From positions 1 through 31,347 of the IMG/VR virus record IMGVR_UViG_3300030202_001270: a stretch of DNA of 31,347 nucleotides. One strand, given 5' to 3'. The notes beneath the pieces were generated by a model, which was given only the letters and a program-made list of their open reading frames with translations, made no database searches and was not told the origin of the DNA. Below, one piece after another: positions 4,464 to 22,670 of the stretch (positions are counted from its first letter, which is position 1; every line of letters begins with the position of its first letter). Source of the DNA: a virus. A program made the position numbers and the translations under genes.

Positions 4464-4595
4464 TTGAAGAAAAGATATTTCAACACCAAGAAAAAACGTA
4501 AAGATCCAGCCGTAGAGGCAGAGAAAATAAGACTAAATAAAATTAAAAATGAAACTAGAGGTAATAAGATTCAACAAAGGGGTAGACTCAACTAA
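4464..4595 (+). CDS. Possible basic 43-residue leader peptide
   Basis: A TTG-initiated frame, KKRYFNTKKKRKDPAVEAEK and on, runs 43 residues to a TAA and overlaps the start of the DUF5675-like gene by 47 bases in another frame. It is strongly basic like other small phage proteins here and fills the otherwise empty leader downstream of the 4407 box. Against it: no ATG, no family, and A-rich DNA easily reads as Lys codons. It may be a shadow of the A-rich leader. Confidence 0.25.
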   Translation: MKKRYFNTKKKRKDPAVEAEKIRLNKIKNETRGNKIQQRGRLN

Positions 4596-5067
4596 TGGGA
4601 TACTATTCGATATAACAAATGGTAAAAGAAAATTTTTATGCTACACTCTCGAAGATGAAGACAGAGATGAAAAGGTACGTGGAGAAACTTGTATACCTGA
4701 AGGAGAGTACCGCCTCGGTATTCGAGATGTGGGTGGATTCCATCAGAAGTACTCTAAAAGATTTGCCGACATACATAAAGGGATGCTTCATGTCCTTGAT
4801 GTACCTAATTTTTCTTATATTCTTATTCATTGTGGTAATACCGATGAGCATACTGCGGGATGTCTTCTCGTGGGTGATACGCAAGAAAACAACAACATCA
4901 AAACAAACGGATTTATAGGTAAGTCAACAAAAGCATATATGAGGGTATACCCAGACATAGTAGATGCGGTTCTCTCTGGTGAGGAGTGCACTATTACGTA
5001 CAGAGACTTTGCCGAATGCCTTATACTACAGCAGGCCGATATAACTGAATTTTTCGGAGAATGCTAG
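4549..5067 (+). CDS. DUF5675-like protein, possible cell-wall enzyme
   Basis: 172 residues resembling DUF5675: a TLED.DRD.KV.GET.IP.G.Y region (residues 33-54) followed by a conserved H94-x-G96-N97 and G104-C105-L-L-V-G block. Its function is not established. The His...Gly-Cys spacing is reminiscent of the L,D-transpeptidase (YkuD) active site, with H94 and C105 as candidate catalytic residues, so a peptidoglycan-related role such as lysis is conceivable; that is inference. Its stop overlaps the start of the lectin-like gene at 5061. A +2-frame ORF inside it (4619-4918) could encode a membrane peptide. I see no separate conventional endolysin in the window. Confidence 0.8.
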   Translation: MKLEVIRFNKGVDSTNGILFDITNGKRKFLCYTLEDEDRDEKVRGETCIPEGEYRLGIRDVGGFHQKYSKRFADIHKGMLHVLDVPNFSYILIHCGNTDEHTAGCLLVGDTQENNNIKTNGFIGKSTKAYMRVYPDIVDAVLSGEECTITYRDFAECLILQQADITEFFGEC

Positions 5068-5798
5068 GTAGTATGGGAATGTCAGGGCCCAAGAGGCCAA
5101 AGAAGCCAAAAAAGCTAAAAAGGGTAAACAGCTGCATGCTTTTTGATGGTAATGACGATGATGCCATCATACCTATAAACAGCACCGCTTGGCCCAGCAC
5201 AGGTGATTTTAGCATATGCTTCTGGGCTGCTCCAGTAAATGGATCAGATGTCGATTGGTACTTTGGTCAAACAACTGGCAAAACCACCGCTTTGACATTC
5301 CAGCACGATAGCTTTAGTAAATTTCGATTTCGCATATCGTTTTCTAATTTAAACGCCGTAGACCTTCAAACGGTAGCAATGTCACGACTTACGAACAATC
5401 AATGGTACCATTTTGCAATAGTGGTAGACAGATCAAGCGCATCGAATAGTAAAATATACATTGATGGAAATGCAGCAAGCATGGATACTCAAACTGTAGA
5501 TGCTACAGCTGATATTAATATAAATAACGATCTGTATATAGCTAGAAATACAGCAACATCTCAAGATAGTGGATCTAAAAATATGAAGTGTGCTGACTTT
5601 GCTATATTTAGCGAAGCAATACCAGAAAAGCTTATAAAAAAGATGCATAGAGCTAAATGTAGATTAGATTTAACTAGAGGTAAGTTTTCGAAAGAGCTTG
5701 TATGCTATTACCGCCCAGGAATAAGTAATAGTGATTTTTCTGGCAATTTAGGTGATCTTACGGTTAGCGGAGCAACAATTGGCCAAGGTCACCCTTAA
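5061..5798 (+). CDS. LamG/concanavalin-like lectin domain protein
   Basis: 245 residues. After a basic, Pro/Lys-rich N-terminus (GPKRPKKPKKLKRV, residues ~9-22) comes a laminin-G/concanavalin-like fold: FSICFWAAP, later NQWYHFAIVVDRSS, KIYIDGNAA and LYIARN, then an ADFAIFSEAIPEKLIKKMH strand-helix end typical of LamG domains. Such domains bind glycans; on a phage they often sit on virion surface or tail proteins. ATG at 5061 overlaps the previous stop by seven bases; an in-frame ATG at 5073 is an alternative. The stop shares a TTAA with the stop of the convergent minus-strand gene. A glycan-binding role is inferred from fold. Confidence 0.8.
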   Translation: MLGSMGMSGPKRPKKPKKLKRVNSCMLFDGNDDDAIIPINSTAWPSTGDFSICFWAAPVNGSDVDWYFGQTTGKTTALTFQHDSFSKFRFRISFSNLNAVDLQTVAMSRLTNNQWYHFAIVVDRSSASNSKIYIDGNAASMDTQTVDATADININNDLYIARNTATSQDSGSKNMKCADFAIFSEAIPEKLIKKMHRAKCRLDLTRGKFSKELVCYYRPGISNSDFSGNLGDLTVSGATIGQGHP

Positions 5799-6217
5799 CC
5801 CTCAAGTTCTCTGTACACCCTCTGTACAAGAAGTCTAGCTTTTTGAGTTAACGCATATCTTACCCTGTAGTTGTATTTAGTCTCATCTCTAAACAGATGA
5901 TCTTCATATGTGTCAGATGGAGTTAACTTGTCGAAGTGTTTATATATGTACCCTTTATTAACCATGGGGTATATAAAGCGGTTCTGTGTATTGTTCTTAT
6001 TCATCCCCATATCCTTAGATGCATAGTCTATTGTAAAAAACTGTAGGTCATACCCCCATAATAGAAACTCTACCTGACTAAATGAGAGATCGGTATTTTT
6101 GTTTATATTACGTTTAACCTCTTTGAGTCTTTTAAGGTAGTTTCTTAGAATATATTTCTTATCTTGCAGAGCAAAATCTCTGAAAAGACGTTTCTTTGGA
6201 ACTCTACTTTTAGGCAT
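5795..6217 (-). CDS. Putative winged-helix (MarR-like) transcriptional regulator
   Basis: 140 residues, basic. Residues 43-138 read like a MarR-type winged helix: DLSFSQVEFLLWGYDLQFF (helix entering the domain), TIDYASKDMGMNKNNTQNRF (helix-turn-helix, residues ~62-81), YPMVNKGYIYKHF (recognition helix into wing), then VRYALTQKARLLVQRVYREL, the strand plus C-terminal helix usual in this fold. The minus orientation and near-abutting divergent start with the gene at 6222 suit a regulator controlling adjacent genes. The similarity is by pattern only, so the assignment is moderate. It could alternatively be an assembly protein with a wHTH domain. Confidence 0.65.
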   Translation of the reverse strand: MPKSRVPKKRLFRDFALQDKKYILRNYLKRLKEVKRNINKNTDLSFSQVEFLLWGYDLQFFTIDYASKDMGMNKNNTQNRFIYPMVNKGYIYKHFDKLTPSDTYEDHLFRDETKYNYRVRYALTQKARLLVQRVYRELEG

Positions 6218-6795: not shown

Positions 6796-7398
6796 ATGAA
6801 GACATTTGATTTATTTGTTGTTAAGCTTGAGAAAAGGTTTGACGATAAGGTAGTTACAGACAGTGGTTTAGAACTGTATATGGATACAAAGTTCAATGAA
6901 TTTGAGAACCGCATCACAGAAGGACCTGTTGTATGCGTACCTTTTAAATATGACACTGGCGTTGAAGAAGGTGATACCTTATACTTTCACCACCTTGTAG
7001 TTATGGGTGGAGATAACAACGGTCAGATATTTACAGAAGAAGACAATACCTATATAGTAAAGTATGATCCAAAATTTGCTATAAGCAATCAGGCTATAGC
7101 TTATAAAAGCCAAAAAGACGGTAAGATACGTTGTCTTACAGGATGGTGTTTGTTAAAGCCTGTAGAGCAAAAAGAACTAACTCTTCAATCTGACATCATA
7201 GAGGTAGTAGACAACAGTGAGAAACTCCCAACAAAAGGTGAGGTAGCTTATTTATGTGAAGAGGGTAAAGAGATGGGATTAGAGCCTGGTGATATTGTTG
7301 GGTTTAAACAGAATAGAGATTATCGTTTAACCATAGACGGGCAGGAATACTACCGTACCCGTGCAGAAGATTTATATGGAGTCTATGTCGAAGCCTAA
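6796..7398 (+). CDS. Tandem GroES-like co-chaperonin candidate
   Basis: 200 residues that read as two GroES-type domains. Domain 2 (about 116-200): WCLLKPV, a loop with IIEVV (134-138), K147-GEV, L162-x-x-GDIVGF (165-170), YRLTIDGQEYYRTRAEDLYGVYVEA, closely following the GroES order and its usual DILAIVE-like end. Domain 1 (1-~110): FDLFVVKLEK, a loop with GLELYM (24-29), EGPVV (42-46), VEEGDTLYF (56-64), EDNTYIVKYD. In GroES the mobile loop contacts GroEL. Phage co-chaperonins such as T4 gp31 replace GroES for capsid folding; a similar role here is inferred. Upstream of the terminase, in the small-gene operon. Confidence 0.68.
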   Translation: MKTFDLFVVKLEKRFDDKVVTDSGLELYMDTKFNEFENRITEGPVVCVPFKYDTGVEEGDTLYFHHLVVMGGDNNGQIFTEEDNTYIVKYDPKFAISNQAIAYKSQKDGKIRCLTGWCLLKPVEQKELTLQSDIIEVVDNSEKLPTKGEVAYLCEEGKEMGLEPGDIVGFKQNRDYRLTIDGQEYYRTRAEDLYGVYVEA

Positions 7399-7934: not shown

Positions 7935-8120
7935 ATGGCTGAGTATAAATGTGAATGCGATGAGCATGAATTAGAATGTTCTAGTGTGGTTATTAGAATG
8001 ATAGATGGTAAGGCCACACACGACATTAAATGTCCATGTGGAAAATACATGGAATTATCAAACCCCAAGACAGGAATTGCATCTCTTGGAAGAATGAATA
8101 AGAATGGTAGCAGTTACTAA
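7935..8120 (+). CDS. Small zinc-ribbon-like protein
   Basis: 61 residues from ATG 7935 (a TTG at 7926 is less likely). Cysteines C6-x-C8, C15 and C33-x-C35 around YKCECDEHELEC and IKCPCGKYMEL suggest a metal-binding ribbon. The stop overlaps the terminase start by one base (TAATG), so the two are translationally coupled and probably function close together. It may assist DNA or terminase binding, which is inference only. Confidence 0.72.
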   Translation: MAEYKCECDEHELECSSVVIRMIDGKATHDIKCPCGKYMELSNPKTGIASLGRMNKNGSSY

Positions 8121-10234
8121 TGTCTGTACTATTAAATGTAAAAGAATATGATGACCCTGCTGTCAAGATTTGCCCCAACGGTACGGAGGGTGAAATTATC
8201 GAACTCGGTGGGCTACTCATTTGCCTTCCAAAAAGGCCGCCGAAGAAAGAAGTTTTCGGACATAAAGAATCAGACTCTATGCAAGTGTGGAGAAGGGTAC
8301 CTATGCCGAAGGAACTGTCTCGTATTAAATCTATGGATGAGTGGGAGGAAATGCCAAGGGAGTTCAGAGCGAGGTTTCGTCCATATATCGAGGAGGAGTT
8401 TAGGCGTAGGCGTGAGGGTTTTTGGTTTTATAACAACGGTACAGCTACATATATTACGGGGCGGCATTACATGATGCTGCAGTGGACCAAGCTAGATATT
8501 GGTCATCCTTATTTTCTTAACTTTCAACGTGAAATCTTTCTACACATGGCTGCATGCGAAGCTGATCCACGTTGCATTGGTCAGCTTTATACTAAGTGCC
8601 GTCGTTCTGGGTACACTAATATATGCTCTGCTGTACTTGTTGACGAGGCAACCCAGGTTAAAGACAAGCTTATGGGTATACAGTCGAAAACTGGTAAGGA
8701 TGCTCAGGAAAATATTTTCATGAAGAAGGTAGTTTATATGTTTAGAAACTATCCATTCTTCTTCAAACCTATACAAGACGGTACAACTAATCCACGTATG
8801 GAGCTAGCTTTTAGAGAGCCGTCAAAGCGTATCACCAAAAAGAACAAAACATCTCAGATGGGTGAAGCGCTTAATACAGTTATAAATTGGAAAAACACAA
8901 CTAACAATGCATACGATGGTGAGAAGCTACACCTATTGTATCTAGATGAAGCAGGAAAATGGGAAAGACCTACAGACATAAGAGACGCATGGAGGATTCA
9001 GAGGACATGTTTGATCGTCGGGCGAAAAATCGTGGGAAAGGCACTCGTGGGAAGCACAGTAAATCCGATGGACAAAGGGGGAAAAGAATACAAAGATCTA
9101 TGGGCGGACTCGAACCCCTTGACGAGGAACGCGAATGGTAGAACCGTAAGCGGTCTCTATAGGTTGTTTATACCAGCACAAGATTCACTTGAGGGGTTTT
9201 TTGATATATATGGGTATCCAGTTATAGAAACTCCAGAATCTCCAATAGAGGGTATAGATGGTGAGAATATAACTATAGGCTCTAAAAGATATCTTAAAAA
9301 CGAAAGAGAATCTTTAAAGCATGATCCGTCAGAGCTTAATGAGGTAACTAGACAGTTCCCGTTTACAGAGGACGAAGCCTTTAGAGACAGTATAGAGGGT
9401 AGTCTATTTAACATAGGTAAGATATACCAGCAAATAGAATATAATGACGAGCTCTTTCCCAATCCTGTAGTAAAGGGTAATTTTGTATGGAAGGAGAAAG
9501 ATAAGCAAGCTGTATTTAGCCCAGACGTTAATGGTAGATTTAAAATATCGTGGTTACCACCAGATGATCAAAGAAATGTAACAAAATTAGACAGAGGTAA
9601 AAAAGTACCGCCTTTTGGAGACAGAGGTTGCGGTGGTGTCGACAGTTATGACCTTGATGCTACAGTAGACGGTAGAGGTTCTAAGGGTGCTCTACATATG
9701 TACAATAAATTTCATATGGAGAATCCATCTAATATGTTTGTTGTGGAGTATGCATCCCGTCCAGATCTTGCGAGGATATTCTACGAAGACGTTCTTATGT
9801 GTGCGTTTTTCTACGGTTACCCTATCTTAATTGAAAACAATAAGTATGGTATAGCAAGATACTTTGAATCAAGAGGTTATGATGGTTATTTAATGGATCG
9901 TCCAGATCATTTAAAGACAAGCAATGCAAAGGTTCATGTAAAAACAAAAGGTATACCCTCTAACTCTCAAGACGTTATACAGGCACACGCTCATGCTATA
10001 GAGTCATATATACACGAACATGTGGGTGTAAATTATGATACGGGTGACATGGGTAAGATGTATTTTAACGCAACGATGGAGGATTGGATAGGATTTAAAA
10101 TAGATAAAAGAACAAAATTTGACTTAACGATTAGCTCAGGATTAGCCCTTTTAGCTGCACAAAAAACAAAGACTAAGCCGAGAGCAGACTTCACTGAACA
10201 CAAGTTCTTTAGGAGATATGAAGTAATCGGTTGA
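8120..10234 (+). CDS. terL: Terminase large subunit (packaging ATPase/nuclease)
   Basis: 704 residues, long for TerL. N-terminal ATPase: Walker A-like KCRRSGYT (159-166, the KxRRxGxT/S variant of phage terminases), Walker B LLYLDEA with D276 and E277, and GSTVNP (~311-316) at the coupling-motif position. C-terminal RNase H-like nuclease: GGVDSYDLDAT with D508, ILIENNKYG with E572, and a last acidic region around MEDWIGFKID near 655. The extra N-terminal ~110 residues are acidic/basic mixed. It cuts concatemers and drives DNA through the portal encoded next. ATG overlaps the upstream stop (TAATG). Confidence 0.93.
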   Translation: MSVLLNVKEYDDPAVKICPNGTEGEIIELGGLLICLPKRPPKKEVFGHKESDSMQVWRRVPMPKELSRIKSMDEWEEMPREFRARFRPYIEEEFRRRREGFWFYNNGTATYITGRHYMMLQWTKLDIGHPYFLNFQREIFLHMAACEADPRCIGQLYTKCRRSGYTNICSAVLVDEATQVKDKLMGIQSKTGKDAQENIFMKKVVYMFRNYPFFFKPIQDGTTNPRMELAFREPSKRITKKNKTSQMGEALNTVINWKNTTNNAYDGEKLHLLYLDEAGKWERPTDIRDAWRIQRTCLIVGRKIVGKALVGSTVNPMDKGGKEYKDLWADSNPLTRNANGRTVSGLYRLFIPAQDSLEGFFDIYGYPVIETPESPIEGIDGENITIGSKRYLKNERESLKHDPSELNEVTRQFPFTEDEAFRDSIEGSLFNIGKIYQQIEYNDELFPNPVVKGNFVWKEKDKQAVFSPDVNGRFKISWLPPDDQRNVTKLDRGKKVPPFGDRGCGGVDSYDLDATVDGRGSKGALHMYNKFHMENPSNMFVVEYASRPDLARIFYEDVLMCAFFYGYPILIENNKYGIARYFESRGYDGYLMDRPDHLKTSNAKVHVKTKGIPSNSQDVIQAHAHAIESYIHEHVGVNYDTGDMGKMYFNATMEDWIGFKIDKRTKFDLTISSGLALLAAQKTKTKPRADFTEHKFFRRYEVIG

Positions 10235-10239
10235 TTCAC

Positions 10240-10247
10240 TATATTTG
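10240..10247 (+). promoter_or_regulatory. TATATTTG box before the portal gene
   Basis: TATATTTG lies between the terminase stop and the portal ATG at 10254, six bases after the box. It matches the -7 element; no good -33 TTTG is seen. The predicted transcript is nearly leaderless. The box also explains why the TTG at 10245 should not be used as start: it is inside the promoter. Confidence 0.58.
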
Positions 10248-10253
10248 CATAAT

Positions 10254-12665
10254 ATGTATGGACACGACAACGTAAATAAAAAGAATGGATTTCCTGATCC
10301 ATTAGCAGATCAACAAACCAAGGAGTCCGACGCATATGGACTACAGTATGCAAAAGCTATTCATTCCCAGTGGGGTAAAATGAATGAAGCGTCTTCTTTG
10401 TTTGCAAAAAGAAATAAAGTATTTGAAAGAAGTAGAGACTACGCTAACGGAACACAGGATACAAGTATATACAAACAGCTTTTAAACTCTTTATCACCCA
10501 ATAAAGGTGACGGGAGCCTCTTAAATCTAGACTATACACCAGTACCGATTCTTCCAAAATTTGTAAAAGTTGTCGTAAACAAAACATTATCAAGGGATCC
10601 ATACCCTAATCTAGAATCTATAGATCCAATATCTTCTTCTGAAAAAAATAAGAAGAAAGATAAAATGAGGATGCAGGTAGAGGCAAAAGAATTACTGCGC
10701 TCTCTAAAACAAAAAACAGGCGTTGTTTTGGATATGGATCCAGATGCTATACCAGATACTCTTGAGGAGGCTGAGATATTTATGGATACAAACGTAAAGA
10801 CTGACGCTGAAATAGCTGCTCAGATAGGAACCAACATGACGTTGAGCTGGAGTAACTTTTCAGACACAACATACAGAAGGGCTGTTAACGATATAGTAGC
10901 TCTTGGTATGGGTGTTGTAAAAAGAAGAAACGACCCAAATAAAGGTATATCTCTTGAGTATGTAGATCCTGCATCTTTTGTACATAGCTACACAGAAGAT
11001 CCTAATTTTGATGATCTTGTATATGCTGGTAGTGTAAAGAGAATATCTATACAGGAGCTAAAAAGATTGTCTGCTGGCTCATTTGAAGAAGAGGAATACA
11101 AGAAGATAGCTGAGCAGGTAAAAAATAAACAAGGTAATGATCCAGGAAAATTAAGCCAAACACATTACAATGAGCGTTTACAACGCACAACATATGGCTA
11201 TGATGAGTACATGGTTGATCTACTTGATTTTGAGTTTATATCTGTAGATACCATGCATTTTGAGGAGAAAGAGAGTAGACACGGAAATAAAGGTTTTTAT
11301 TATAAAGGATTCCAATACAAAGAAAAACCAGGTAGCGTTTTTGAGCGTACTCCACATAAAATGGAAATGTCTGTTCTTTATGGTGGTTCCTATATCCTAG
11401 GTACTGATAAGCTATTTAATTACGGGAGATCTAAAAACGTACCCAAGAACATACACGATATATCAAAGTGTAGACTGTCTTATTCTGTAGCCGCAACCAA
11501 CATTAGGCGCATGATGCCTAAGTCCATGGTTGAGAGCTGTACAGGGTTTGCAGATATGTTACAGCTTACTCACTTAAAAATTCAGCAGGCTATTGCAAAG
11601 GCTAAGCCTGACGGATTAATTATCGATATTGAGGGGTTAGAAAATGTACAGCTTGGTAAAGGGGGTGAATTACAACCCCTAGAGCTTCACGATATATACG
11701 AGCAGACTGGTGTATTTTATTACAGAAGTAAAAACCCAGAAGGCGGTTTCCAGAACCCACCTATACGTGAAATTGGAAATACAATAAGAAACATAAATGA
11801 ACTTATAGGTTTGTATAATCATTATATGCAGCTTATTAGAGACACGACGGGTATTAATGATGCTATGGATGCATCATCACCTAAAGGTGAGGCACTTGTC
11901 GGTGTTCAGCAGCAGGCTATAGCTGCAGGTAACAACGCTATATATGATATAACAAACGCATCTATGATGCTGTTTAAGAGAGTATGTTCTGACGTTGTTA
12001 AATGTTTACAAATCCTTCCAAAAGAATCCGTTCTATATAAGATATACACAAACGCTATAGGCGAAGAGAATATGAATGTTTTGTCTTCGTTTGAGGATCT
12101 GTCTATGTACAACTTTGGTGTTCAGGTGGTTAAGGAGATGGAGGATAAGGATAAGGAGTATCTGGAGATGAATATCCAGATGGCTATACAGCAGCAACAA
12201 ATAGATCTAGAAGACGCTATGGCTGTTAGAGCCCTTAAGGATGTTAATCAGGCAGAGAGATTGCTTATTATACGCAGAAAGAAGAGAATGCAGGAGCAGC
12301 AACAGATGGCTATGCAGAATTCTGAGCAGCAGGCTCAGCAAGCAGCAGCAGCTGCAGAGCAGGCATCACAAGCCCGTATGGGTGAGCTTCAGGCTCAGGC
12401 TCAGATAGATCAACAAGAGATTCAGCTTAAGGGTCAGCTTGAGATGCAGTTAGCTCAGATGAAACACGAGTTTAATAAAGAAATTGAGATGATACGCGCT
12501 CAGGCTACGCTTGGGTTTAAAGAGGATGATCAGAACTTTAAAGAAAAGCTTGATGTTATGAAAGAGGACAGAAAAGATGAACGTCAACAAGACAATGCGG
12601 ATAATCAGATGAAGATTACACAGATGGCTCAGGGTGAGGAGCCACAACCCGAACAAATGATGTAA
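10254..12665 (+). CDS. Portal protein with long Gln-rich coiled-coil tail
   Basis: 803 residues. Directly after TerL. The body has the usual portal feel: YGLQYAKAIHSQWGKMNEA and a LPKFVKVVVNKTLSRDPYPN region near 105-125, a GMGVVKRRNDP segment, GLYNHYMQLIRDTTGINDAMD followed by GEALVGVQQQAI in the region matching the portal stem/crown. The last ~150 residues (QQQMAMQNSEQQAQQAAAAA, then EIQLKGQLEMQLAQMKHEF) form a long Gln/Ala/Glu coiled coil. It forms the dodecameric DNA channel at one capsid vertex. Large portals of 700-800 residues are known in podoviruses of Bacteroidetes, which fits. Portal rather than another large head protein is inferred from position and pattern. Confidence 0.85.
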   Translation: MYGHDNVNKKNGFPDPLADQQTKESDAYGLQYAKAIHSQWGKMNEASSLFAKRNKVFERSRDYANGTQDTSIYKQLLNSLSPNKGDGSLLNLDYTPVPILPKFVKVVVNKTLSRDPYPNLESIDPISSSEKNKKKDKMRMQVEAKELLRSLKQKTGVVLDMDPDAIPDTLEEAEIFMDTNVKTDAEIAAQIGTNMTLSWSNFSDTTYRRAVNDIVALGMGVVKRRNDPNKGISLEYVDPASFVHSYTEDPNFDDLVYAGSVKRISIQELKRLSAGSFEEEEYKKIAEQVKNKQGNDPGKLSQTHYNERLQRTTYGYDEYMVDLLDFEFISVDTMHFEEKESRHGNKGFYYKGFQYKEKPGSVFERTPHKMEMSVLYGGSYILGTDKLFNYGRSKNVPKNIHDISKCRLSYSVAATNIRRMMPKSMVESCTGFADMLQLTHLKIQQAIAKAKPDGLIIDIEGLENVQLGKGGELQPLELHDIYEQTGVFYYRSKNPEGGFQNPPIREIGNTIRNINELIGLYNHYMQLIRDTTGINDAMDASSPKGEALVGVQQQAIAAGNNAIYDITNASMMLFKRVCSDVVKCLQILPKESVLYKIYTNAIGEENMNVLSSFEDLSMYNFGVQVVKEMEDKDKEYLEMNIQMAIQQQQIDLEDAMAVRALKDVNQAERLLIIRRKKRMQEQQQMAMQNSEQQAQQAAAAAEQASQARMGELQAQAQIDQQEIQLKGQLEMQLAQMKHEFNKEIEMIRAQATLGFKEDDQNFKEKLDVMKEDRKDERQQDNADNQMKITQMAQGEEPQPEQMM

Positions 12666-13137: not shown

Positions 13138-13292
13138 GTATTACAATAAATACAACCACAGGGACTGTAAGCGTAACAGAGCCTGTTACAATAACAGCAA
13201 AAGCTACTGAGTCGTCTGTTATAACGGCTACGGCTACAAAGCCTACAAAATTAAATATAGAGGTTACACTTAATTCAAGATCATTAAGATGA
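13134..13292 (+). CDS. 52-residue Thr/Val-rich small protein
   Basis: An ATG-initiated frame overlapping both neighbours by ATGA. The peptide (SITINTTTGTVSVTEPVTIT, then AKATESSVITATATKPTKLN and IEVTLNSRSLR) has no aromatic residue and alternates Thr/Val as in a beta-rich structural protein. It is too small for many gene finders but the two four-base overlaps and the absence of any other gene in this 150-base interval make it likely real. Function unknown; perhaps a small virion component paired with the preceding protein. Confidence 0.72.
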   Translation: MSITINTTTGTVSVTEPVTITAKATESSVITATATKPTKLNIEVTLNSRSLR

Positions 13293-15502
13293 GATATATA
13301 CTATTAGCTTTATTTTTTATACCCTCTTTATTGTTTGCTCAGCCAGACGACGCAAGCTGGTTAAACGTAACATTACAGACAGATCAGTATGCTGGAGAGT
13401 CATCGTGGGAGATAATAAACTTAGATAGCATTGTGGTCGCTACAAATCCACCGCTTCAGAATAGTTCGCTATTGAATACAATGGTTTTTTTACCTGCAGG
13501 TGATTATAATTTTATTATGTATGATGCGTTTGGTGATGGTATATGCTGTTCATTTGGTAATGGCTTTTACGGGATAACGAACAACTGTGGTTTAGAGGAG
13601 TTTAATTATGAATTTGCTGGAGCTATAGATACGATACCATTTACGCTAACACCTTGTCTCCCTGTACTTCTTGGGTGTATGAACGAGGCTGCAGATAATT
13701 ATAACCCATGGGCCAATCAAGATGACGGCAGCTGTGAGGTTATAGAATGTGATTCACTTGAAACGCTTGTAACTATGGAGTTAACGCTAGACACATGGCC
13801 TGGCGAAACTGGATTTACAATAGTTAACATAGCAGACGGTCAGCCATATGAGCAGGTTATACCTGGGGAATTTGACTTTGGTGATCAACTGGCTACATAT
13901 ACATATGACTTTTGTGTGTCATTAGGCTTTGAGGTAGTCCTTGTTGATGAGTTTGGTGATGGGTTAAACGGTTTTGAATCAGGTGGTCAAGATGGCGGAT
14001 GTGTTGTTACTGCTTGTGACAGCGTTATATGGGAGTTAGAGGATTTAGCTTTTACAGAGTTTGGCGGTAATACTATGTACTCTGGCGCTATATTTACACA
14101 GCCGTGCCCTCCCGCACCTGACGTTTACGGATGTATGGATGATGACTATGTTGATTATAATCCAGAAGCTACAGTTCAGGACACCTGCATGACTTTACAT
14201 ACGTGGGGTTGTACAGATCCAGTGGCTATGAATTATGACAGCACAGCTACTATAGCTGACCTAAGCGGTCCCTGCAGTATACAGATTGTACTTCAAGACG
14301 ACGCTGGTGATGGTTGGGGTATGTCAGGTATTGGCATGAAGCAGGGAGATCAACAGTGGTTATTCACTATAGGTCCTGGCATATTCTCAGAGTCATGGGA
14401 TATTATCTTGGACTCTGATGAAGAGGTAGATATATACTACTTCCAAGATGGAGGTCAGCAATCTTCTTCACAAGAGTTGGCATTCCAAACATTACATAAC
14501 TCCGTGTATGCTATTAATGAAGCTGGAGATACATTGTTGTCTGAAGGGTCTAACCCATTCCTAAATAACGGACAAGGAGCTTTACAGCCATTTAGTGCTC
14601 CAGAGTGGAAGGTGTACCACTTCACACCATACTGCGGAGATAGTTGTATACCTTATATATATGGTTGTACTGATGAGACTGCATGTAATTACGATTCTGA
14701 TGCTAACACAAATTCTGATTGTAGCTACCCAGTACAGTATTACGACTGTAACAACAGCTGTATTAGTGACTATGATAGTGATGGGGTTTGTGATGAATTA
14801 GAGGTTGCAGGCTGTCAAGATCCTACTGCATTTAATTACAATGCATTAGCTACAGACGCTGGAGAGTGTATTCCAGTTATATTCGGCTGCACTGATCCAA
14901 CACAGTTTAACTACAATCCAGAAGCCAATACGGAGAACGGAAACTGCATACCTTTTATATACGGATGTATGAATCCAGATGCATTTAATTACAATCCAAA
15001 TGCCAATACAGAGCTTGAAGATTCATGTATTGAAGTATTGGTTGACTGTATGGACCCTAATGCGTTTAATTACAATGAGTTAGCTAACACCTCTAACGAA
15101 GAATTATGCTTATATGATGCTGGATGCATTACAGGACCTGGCAATCCATACTGGCTAAACAACGGGTGTTACGCATGGATTATAGATATTGACCCATACT
15201 GCTGTGAGGTTGAATGGGATGATTCGTGTATAGAGTTATATTCATACTGTGAGCAGGGTTGGCCACAGGGTGTATATGATATACACGATGTATACGGTAT
15301 ATACCCTAACCCTACAAGCGAGGTTCTGAATGTGCGGGCCCCCGAAGGTACTATAATCAGTATCTATAACACAACAGGACAGCTTGTAGTGGCTAGGACT
15401 ACAGATAAAGTCATTGACCTAACAAACCTACCTAAGGGTGTTTATAAGGTTGTAATGGAATACAATAAAAGAACTATTAACAAAAAAATTATTAAGTCAT
15501 GA
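13289..15502 (+). CDS. Secreted multidomain protein with T9SS type A sorting domain
   Basis: 737 residues. Signal peptide MRYILLALFFIPSLLFAQ (1-18). Beta domains with the FGDGxx motif (YDAFGDGICC, VDEFGDGLNG, DDAGDGWGMS) at ~85, ~220 and ~340. Eight GC.xxxAxNYNxxAxxxxxxC cysteine repeats at 129, 281, 307, 459, 508, 533, 559 and 586. A TSP3-like calcium stretch YDSDGVCDELEVAGC (~492-509). A T9SS type A sorting domain from about 670: IYPNPTSEVLNV, ISIYNTTGQLV, DLTNLPKGVYKVVM, KKIIKS. In Bacteroidetes, this domain sends cargo across the outer membrane, where it is usually cleaved or attached to lipopolysaccharide. Located between portal-proximal and envelope genes, coupled by ATGA overlaps. Its phage role is unknown. 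Confidence 0.9.
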   Translation: MRYILLALFFIPSLLFAQPDDASWLNVTLQTDQYAGESSWEIINLDSIVVATNPPLQNSSLLNTMVFLPAGDYNFIMYDAFGDGICCSFGNGFYGITNNCGLEEFNYEFAGAIDTIPFTLTPCLPVLLGCMNEAADNYNPWANQDDGSCEVIECDSLETLVTMELTLDTWPGETGFTIVNIADGQPYEQVIPGEFDFGDQLATYTYDFCVSLGFEVVLVDEFGDGLNGFESGGQDGGCVVTACDSVIWELEDLAFTEFGGNTMYSGAIFTQPCPPAPDVYGCMDDDYVDYNPEATVQDTCMTLHTWGCTDPVAMNYDSTATIADLSGPCSIQIVLQDDAGDGWGMSGIGMKQGDQQWLFTIGPGIFSESWDIILDSDEEVDIYYFQDGGQQSSSQELAFQTLHNSVYAINEAGDTLLSEGSNPFLNNGQGALQPFSAPEWKVYHFTPYCGDSCIPYIYGCTDETACNYDSDANTNSDCSYPVQYYDCNNSCISDYDSDGVCDELEVAGCQDPTAFNYNALATDAGECIPVIFGCTDPTQFNYNPEANTENGNCIPFIYGCMNPDAFNYNPNANTELEDSCIEVLVDCMDPNAFNYNELANTSNEELCLYDAGCITGPGNPYWLNNGCYAWIIDIDPYCCEVEWDDSCIELYSYCEQGWPQGVYDIHDVYGIYPNPTSEVLNVRAPEGTIISIYNTTGQLVVARTTDKVIDLTNLPKGVYKVVMEYNKRTINKKIIKS
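13673..15109 (+). repeat. Eight GC.xxxAxNYNP-type cysteine repeats (protein level)
   Basis: Inside the T9SS cargo gene, units of about 20-23 residues begin at 129, 281, 307, 459, 508, 533, 559 and 586. Each has GC (DC in the last), a D/N two positions on, Asn-Tyr-Asn/Asp near the middle and a final Cys. The last four are nearly tandem (spacing 25-27 residues), the first four scattered between larger beta domains. Repeats of this type are familiar in secreted Bacteroidetes proteins. Confidence 0.85.
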
Positions 15503-21254: not shown

Positions 21255-22670
21255 ATGGCAACATTAGGAACAGATAGAACTGCATCTACAGGTAACTTGC
21301 CTCCGATTGACGGAGCAGCAGGTTCGTTTCGTATTAAACCAGAAACGTACACAACTGTAGATACACTTATCAAAACAACAAAAGATGAGGTAATGCCTAA
21401 CCTCGTTGAGACTTACGGTGATCAAGGTATTACTGGATTTCTTAAATTAACAGGGGCAATTAACAGCGGCGGATCTTCAGACCAGATTGACTGGTGGGAG
21501 GCAGGTCGTCGTCATAAGTCGTACTCATATGTAATTGGAGACGTTACAGATAACACAACTTCTATTACTGTAGCTGCAGGAACTGATAGTTTCTCTTCTA
21601 ACGTGCAGGCAAATGACGTAGTAATGGACAGCTCTACAGGAACACGTTTTATTGTTAAGTCTGGCGGATTCGGAACAGGATCAGCTGTAGATGTAGTAAT
21701 GGTTAAACTTGATGGATCAGCAGTAACTATTGCTTCTGACCTTGATCTTGTTGGTGGAGAGTTTATTAAGCTTGGCAACATGTATGCTCAAGGAACTAAC
21801 CAGCCTACTGCATTTGACGATTTCAACGCAGTGAGAAAGTCTAACCCATTCATGATCGTTAAAGATCGTTATGAGGTTAACGGATCACAGGCTACGAATA
21901 TCGGTTGGGTAAATGTAGGCGGTGGTGAGTACCGTTGGTTCATGAAGGGTGAGCAAGAGGCTCGCGCTCGTTTTGAGGATCGTCGTGAAATGATGATGCT
22001 TCTTGGACAACAGCACTCAGGTACTGCAGGAGCGGGACTTGCTAACGATATTGCTGGCTCTGAAGGTTACTTCGCAGCTATCGAGGATCGTGGAATTCAA
22101 GTTTCTAACGCTAACTCAAACCCACTTGATTCATTCTCTGAGTTCGATGATATTATCATGGAGCTTGATAAGCAAGGTGCGCCATCTGAGTACGCTATGT
22201 ACGTAAACAGAAAGCAAGACCTAGCTATTGACGATATGTTAGCATCAGGTATCTCTACATCAGTAAGCGCTGGTTTGCCTGGACAGTTTGGAGCATTCAA
22301 CAACGACGCAGACATGGCTGTAAAGCTTGGATTTAAGTCGTTTACTCGTGGTGGATACACTTTCCACAAGCACGATTGGAAGCTTCTTAACGATCCAACT
22401 CTTCTAGGTGCATCTAACTACATTCAAGGGGCTATGATTCCTTTATCACAAGTTACAGACGCGCGTAGCGGAATGAAAGCACCAGCTTTAGCTATGTACT
22501 ACAAAGAGGCTAACGGGTATAACCGTGAGATGGAGCACTGGGTAACTGGTAGCATCTTGGGTCATACTAATAACGGAGATCAGGGGCAAGACAACGCTGT
22601 CTTCCACTACCGTTCGGAGATTTCTTTATGTACTCGTGCAGCTAACCAGCACGTAATGATCAAAGGCTAA
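21255..22670 (+). CDS. Major capsid protein candidate (HK97-type)
   Basis: 471 residues following the scaffold candidate. Features consistent with a capsid: an early helix (TYTTVDTLIKTTKDEVMPNL), long beta regions with loops, FMKGEQEARARFEDRREMMM (a spine-like helix near 226-250), and MEHWVTGSILGHTNNGDQGQ near the end. Codon use is biased towards highly expressed codons: Arg is mostly CGT here, while neighbours prefer AGA, as expected for the most abundant virion protein. The fold is inferred; no sequence motif alone proves it. Confidence 0.85.
   Translation: MATLGTDRTASTGNLPPIDGAAGSFRIKPETYTTVDTLIKTTKDEVMPNLVETYGDQGITGFLKLTGAINSGGSSDQIDWWEAGRRHKSYSYVIGDVTDNTTSITVAAGTDSFSSNVQANDVVMDSSTGTRFIVKSGGFGTGSAVDVVMVKLDGSAVTIASDLDLVGGEFIKLGNMYAQGTNQPTAFDDFNAVRKSNPFMIVKDRYEVNGSQATNIGWVNVGGGEYRWFMKGEQEARARFEDRREMMMLLGQQHSGTAGAGLANDIAGSEGYFAAIEDRGIQVSNANSNPLDSFSEFDDIIMELDKQGAPSEYAMYVNRKQDLAIDDMLASGISTSVSAGLPGQFGAFNNDADMAVKLGFKSFTRGGYTFHKHDWKLLNDPTLLGASNYIQGAMIPLSQVTDARSGMKAPALAMYYKEANGYNREMEHWVTGSILGHTNNGDQGQDNAVFHYRSEISLCTRAANQHVMIKG

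Follow-up and report, generated by a model that had tools for sequence, protein, structure and literature searches.

A predicted tandem GroES co-chaperonin encoded beside the terminase gene in Bacteroidota phages

Known co-chaperonins and the phage gene

Bacterial GroES (Cpn10) consists of one domain with a mobile loop that docks on GroEL, and a roof hairpin closes the dome. Phage T4 encodes its own co-chaperonin, gp31, a single-domain heptamer that is needed for folding of the capsid protein. The larger size of the GroEL-gp31 chamber has been attributed to the absence of roof loops together with an extension of the mobile loops (PMC6318259). Chloroplast Cpn20/Cpn21 carries two GroES domains head to tail, and the puzzle it poses is an even number of lid domains on a seven-fold chamber (PMC5780408). 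GroEL is reported to function with lids of six and of eight domains, while in chloroplasts the native lid is, most likely, a seven-fold symmetric ring of mixed composition (PMC5780408). The Cpn11/20/23 complex found on ClpP is a heterotetramer (PMC8889267). Up to now the even-domain puzzle has been studied mainly with Cpn20 from chloroplasts and apicoplasts.

The closest known phage counterparts of the protein reported here belong, as it does itself, to PHROG 13932 (annotated as "co-chaperonin GroES") and are encoded by flavophages: gp096, gp089 and gp013 of Cellulophaga phages phi13:2, phi38:1 and Calle_1, respectively, gp30 of Flavobacterium phage elemoF and a protein of Maribacter phage Panino. 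They share its size (approximately 180-200 aa), homology over the full length and a position upstream of terminase and portal, but are only about 21-28% identical to it, and many of the phages carrying them add GroEL and a single GroES. GroEL genes have been reported in phi38:1-like environmental genomes (36 members of group 2; PMC5332604), cpn10 is listed among the Pervagoviridae core genes (PMC8776804) and Panino was noted to have GroEL and GroES (PMC11590407). The phi38:1 GroEL turned up both within infected cells and, as peptides, in samples of free virions (PMC13288928, Table 3). A description of a tandem or double phage GroES was not found in the literature searched, which consisted mostly of open papers, so that its absence there is weak evidence. 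The gene family is thus known, and its double-domain design appears to be undescribed; the plain flavophage annotation "co-chaperonin GroES" hides it.

The stretch of DNA analyzed here (the window) is a 31,347-base IMG/VR virus record representing a fragment of a genome, probably that of a phage infecting marine Bacteroidota. Based on PHROG profile matches it encodes a head and packaging operon, with the following genes of interest:

6796-7398, plus strand: tandem GroES co-chaperonin gene, 200 aa (ORF; phrog_13932; model match to Cpn20, 7ekq_R)
8120-10234, plus strand: large terminase subunit, the downstream neighbour (phrog_6681, E 1.4e-203)
10245-12665, plus strand: portal protein (phrog_6547, E 2.4e-192)
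21255-22670, plus strand: virion structural protein, 471 aa (phrog_13704, E 2.4e-114)

The ORF at 6796-7398 starts with ATG, and its coordinates are exactly those of the initial annotation. Judged by its conservation it is a real, conserved gene, since full-length homologues at 99% down to approximately 21% identity occur on hundreds of viral contigs. The PHROG 13932 profile is matched end to end (residues 1-196 against profile positions 1-198 of 200, E 3.7e-41).

Fold and loops of the two halves

The features discussed below, all within the tandem gene, are:

6796-7110, plus strand: GroES-fold half 1, approximately residues 1-105 (model of residues 1-108; profile match)
6853-6924, plus strand: mobile-loop-like segment of half 1, residues 20-43 (aligned to the KTxSGLxL loop of phage GroES)
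6970-6993, plus strand: GDTLYF block (residues 59-64) and HH of half 1, together residues 59-66 (conservation)
7093-7134, plus strand: inter-domain hairpin, residues 100-113 (predicted strands E100-104 and E111-113)
7123-7395, plus strand: GroES-fold half 2, approximately residues 110-200 (Pfam Cpn10; profile; structure match)
7168-7239, plus strand: mobile-loop-like segment of half 2, residues 125-148 (aligned to the GroES mobile loop)
7288-7305, plus strand: GDIVGF block of half 2, residues 165-170 (aligned with GDIVIF of GroES)

The C-terminal half is readily recognized. Residues 111-197 match Pfam Cpn10 above its cut-off (25.7 bits, the threshold being 21.1; E 1.2e-5), and a profile-profile comparison with bacterial GroES gives P 1.3e-13 (all hhalign P-values given here are single-comparison values). 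In structural comparison of the full model this half reaches Z 7-8.5 against GroES chains. The Cupin_2 and DUF1958 matches of Pfam on the same half were rejected, both being under their own cut-offs. The reference in alignments and profile comparisons was a sequence that we take to be that of E. coli GroES.

The N-terminal half is not recognized by curated GroES sequence models. No Pfam or NCBIfam match covers it, its HMMER profile retrieves nothing from the PDB sequences up to E 10, and no single-sequence match to GroES is significant. Profile-profile comparison with phage single-domain GroES, on the other hand, aligns residues 1-64 (P 4.3e-6) in the proper register, with TDSGLELYMD placed on KTxSGLxL of the mobile loop; the score of 36.7 compares with a maximum of 17.9 among 100 column-shuffled controls, none of which is as good. 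The match to bacterial GroES is weak (P 0.0025). Because the C half dominates the match list of the full model, residues 1-108 were also modelled separately with AlphaFold (pLDDT 88; the underlying alignment is not very diverse, with Neff approximately 3). Co-chaperonins then fill the 16 best VIA-align rows from the PDB at Z 5.5-7.7, and the GroES-like domains of alcohol dehydrogenases come next as a fold, from Z 4.4. Foldseek ranks GroES at the top as well, though with an E-value of only 1.7e-3. On the modelled structure we thus have good confidence in a GroES fold for the N half. A reading as an alcohol dehydrogenase GroES-like domain was discarded, as it ranks below the co-chaperonins for the full and the N-half models alike.

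The initial annotation had read two GroES-type halves into the 200-residue protein and had proposed separate profile searches of the halves as well as structure prediction. These point to a GroES fold in both cases, by Pfam and profile for the C half and by profile and model for the N half. It had further pointed to chloroplast Cpn20 as the best-known tandem form, and a likeness in architecture is borne out by the AlphaFold model of the full protein (mean pLDDT 83; the predictions rest on alignments of modest diversity). Its best match by Foldseek and VIA-align is 7ekq chain R (Z 10.6, 170 aligned residues, rmsd 4.4), which the PDB sequence table lists as a Cpn20 co-chaperonin subunit, and the match spans residues 1-198. 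Identity over the alignment is 18%, however, and at the profile level Cpn20 is matched with E 0.93 only and over the C half only, which does not support a shared origin of the fusion. Between T4 gp31 and the window protein no sequence relation was detected, and the structural Z is only 5.8-6.3.

Comparing the halves with each other by hhalign reveals no detectable sequence similarity: 2 of 100 column-shuffled controls score as well. A recent internal duplication is therefore unsupported. With a mean identity of 43% for the N half and 39% for the C half, conservation is equally strong in the two, and so there is decay in neither. In the full model, the last strand of half 1 (residues 100-104) and the first of half 2 (residues 111-113) are neighbours with a short turn between them, a predicted arrangement as would be expected if the domains stood side by side in a ring.

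The anatomy of the loops brings the protein closer to gp31. In the alignment, the segment linking the GEV strand with the GD turn comprises 17 residues in half 1 and 18 in half 2, against 25 in E. coli GroES, which means that the roof loop of the latter is absent from both halves. Chloroplast Cpn20 differs from the phage protein in the same respect. The mobile loop of half 1 is approximately 8 residues longer than in GroES, whereas that of half 2 is near normal. Roof loops are absent and mobile loops longer in gp31 too (here the longer one is in the N half), but gp31 has one domain per chain and the window protein two. These traits agree with a roomier, gp31-like cage. The tandem fusion would not be needed for it, since gp31 achieves a roomier cage as a single-domain protein.

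With bacterial GroES the window protein shares the predicted fold, the GD-x-V-x-F block, a putative mobile loop and the end strands. The mobile-loop-like segment and the GD-[IT]-[VL]-x-F block that had been noted in each half are both found again, the segments aligning with GroES loops in the profile alignments and the blocks reading GDTLYF and GDIVGF. In half 1 the loop contains the motif G-[LIVF]-E-[LIF]-[YI] (residues 24-28), which is widespread among relatives: E26 is present in 37 of 43 diverse sequences and residue 27 is hydrophobic in all 43. The half-2 loop contains SDIIEVV in the window's clade. Both aligned, putative docking loops would therefore carry a hydrophobic-Glu-hydrophobic motif, and the motif centre differs from E. 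coli GroES in that half 1 has a Glu where the latter has a hydrophobic IVL run. D60, H65 and H66 are invariant in the 43 diverse tandem sequences. The pair His65-His66 (6988-6993, plus strand), directly after GDTLYF, is without counterpart in half 2 and missing from phi13:2; metal binding, lining of the cage or a ring contact are suggested as candidate roles.

Distribution and chaperonin partners

The tandem gene is widespread. Homologues were confirmed in 94, at least 538, 540 and 26 stretches, respectively, in four scans of IMG/VR (overlapping sets), and the isolates that carry it infect Cellulophaga, Flavobacterium and Maribacter. Terminase and portal genes come after it in nearly every case. 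Among 190 related viral loci with at least 2.5 kb of downstream sequence, 188 have the terminase on the same strand within 4 kb downstream and the other two slightly further (many loci are near-identical, so these counts are not independent). Several tandem genes in RefSeq are already named co-chaperonin GroES. The double-domain form is common in Bacteroidota phages rather than unique to the window. The contrast drawn in the initial annotation with phage co-chaperonins as single proteins therefore does not hold, given the many tandem entries in RefSeq and PHROGs.

Pfam searches of long contigs and isolates revealed three states with regard to partners; for the window, being a fragment, the state is deduced from relatives. 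In state (a), comprising Calle_1, phi38:1, Panino, ctfjg026, elemoF and relatives, the tandem gene lies by the terminase and a GroEL gene lies beside a single-domain GroES elsewhere. In state (b), phi13:2 and contig G013 have the tandem and a single GroES, and GroEL was not found by Pfam. In state (c), the closest relatives of the window (contigs G002-G006) have the tandem gene only, with neither GroEL nor single GroES found by Pfam. Three of these (G003, G004 and G005; 60-66 kb) show circular permutation when compared with each other and are hence near complete. Truncation of the contigs is thus unlikely as the cause of the missing GroEL, and the absence of GroEL and single GroES in the window's clade is probably real.

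The strongest neighbourhood evidence for cooperation between tandem protein and GroEL comes from four loci (L074-L077) from four metagenomes, in which a GroEL gene sits between the tandem gene and the terminase:

L074:7138-8685 (also L075, L076 and L077): GroEL, bacterial-type, 515 aa, no GGM tail (TIGR02348 equivalog, 673 bits)

This GroEL is 51-59% identical to GroEL of Bacteroidota hosts and 32-38% to other phage GroELs, and its sequence suggests that it was probably acquired separately from a bacterium. Chimeric assembly was ruled out as its source, as four contigs from different metagenomes carry it. A Pfam search found no single GroES in the 55-kb contig of L074 (G007).

Isolated phages of Flavobacterium and Cellulophaga were seen to possess three chaperonin genes, namely GroEL, single GroES and the tandem GroES beside the terminase. 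The chaperonin loci extracted from two RefSeq records are:

L305:4234-6047 and 11200-11742 (NC_055853.1, 24233-26046 and 31199-31741): chaperonin loci
L306:5745-7868 (NC_062744.1, 65744-67867): chaperonin locus

Proposed role and neighbouring genes

Taken together, we propose that the protein is a phage co-chaperonin that acts as a lid of GroEL, a tandem analogue of gp31, probably serving the folding of virion proteins (probability roughly 0.8). The gene, its two-domain layout, the predicted fold of each half, the conservation and the gene surroundings are what the analysis shows; ring formation, GroEL docking, stoichiometry and clients are what we infer. The two GroES-fold domains would stand head to tail, with the strand junction mimicking adjoining subunits of a GroES ring. 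The lid would be assembled from several copies, possibly along with single-domain GroES of phage or host origin, and its mobile loops would dock on the apical domains of GroEL and close the folding chamber. GroEL itself would be provided by the host in the window's clade and by the phage in other clades. As in gp31, roof loops are missing and a mobile loop, that of the N half, is long, so that the chamber under the lid probably offers more room or has an open top. The location of the gene in a packaging and head operon and the precedent of gp31 make virion proteins, for instance the major capsid protein, the probable clients. Several observations speak against this reading: no single-sequence or HMMER match of the N half to GroES is significant and its fold is a predicted one, Glu occupies the centre of its docking motif, and the ctfjg026-like group has a truncated mobile loop in half 2. 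A further caveat is that many relatives pair a phage GroEL with a single GroES, so that the tandem protein might have another partner.

The 471-aa product of 21255-22670 is likely the major capsid protein and a candidate client; its late-operon counterpart in Calle_1 bears the annotation virion structural protein / major capsid protein. The suggestion of the initial annotation that a tandem form might make GroEL cages asymmetric or wider, to suit a large capsid protein, is speculation. For an unusually large client there is no sign, as the likely capsid protein is no larger than T4 gp23 (about 56 kDa; PMC6318259).

A more specific version of the lid reading, differing in stoichiometry, holds that the tandem protein always needs single GroES as its partner, so that a seven-domain ring would be built from three chains of the former and one of the latter, as in the mixed Cpn10/Cpn20 rings of chloroplasts. 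States (a) and (b) would then be self-sufficient and state (c) would need the host's GroES. Many relatives encode both forms, 7ekq lists one Cpn11 and two Cpn20 chains, the Cpn11/20/23 heterotetramer (PMC8889267) amounts to seven domains if Cpn23 is tandem as well, and chloroplasts most likely use a mixed seven-fold lid in the native state (PMC5780408). Nevertheless, the nearest near-complete relatives of the window have no single GroES, so the partner would have to be the host's, and mixing is not required in view of the working six- and eight-domain lids (PMC5780408). We regard this stoichiometry as quite possible, though short of even odds.

It is rather unlikely that one half is the GroEL lid domain and the other an adaptor for clients or capsid, delivering or retaining virion proteins. 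The halves indeed share no detectable sequence similarity, members of the ctfjg026-like group have a shorter mobile-loop segment in half 2 and the invariant HH pair of half 1 is absent from half 2. Still, both halves keep the GroES fold at about equal conservation, and the full model matches Cpn20 over both domains.

Capping of another seven-fold ring such as host ClpP, by which proteolysis would be inhibited and phage proteins protected, is very improbable: the best full-length PDB match is Cpn20 from a ClpP complex and the title of a reference cited in PMC8889267 reports a co-chaperonin complex inhibiting Chlamydomonas ClpP, but this match reflects fold rather than partner, no phage link to ClpP was seen, and the neighbours are packaging genes, with GroEL in one subgroup. 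Hardly any weight can be given to a virion component that is not a chaperone, as the fold is that of a co-chaperonin, and although the gene lies inside the head and packaging operon, the free-virion peptides (PMC13288928, Table 3) concern phi38:1 GroEL rather than the tandem protein and may be carry-over.

The tandem design is a real, testable variant of a known machine and no new type of system. As a tentative picture, Bacteroidota phages may have evolved a roofless tandem lid separately from chloroplasts, used on seven-fold GroEL as an even-numbered or three-plus-one ring, and several clades may employ it as a dedicated lid for capsid folding beside a complete phage GroEL/GroES pair. If true, one phage would run two lids on one chamber. 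Culturable phages bring the tandem design in natural versions with or without phage GroEL and phage single GroES. This makes the symmetry question, and why phages replace the host's lid, testable by phage genetics and native mass spectrometry.

Finally, some other genes of the window deserve mention. Just upstream of the co-chaperonin gene lie a DUF5675 protein (4549-5067, plus strand; E 1e-27) and a protein with a concanavalin-like/laminin-G domain (5061-5798, plus strand; E 1.4e-13). A 140-aa ORF without Pfam match runs on the opposite strand inside the operon (5795-6217, minus strand) and is found at the equivalent position in relatives with 56-87% identity. At 13289-15502 (plus strand) a 737-aa protein is encoded whose N terminus resembles a signal peptide and whose C terminus carries a T9SS type A sorting domain (PF18962, E 3.9e-11; TIGR04183 above cut-off), with homologues in contigs G003, G005 and G007. 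The sorting domain suggests that the product may use type IX secretion of the host, which would then be a member of the Bacteroidota.
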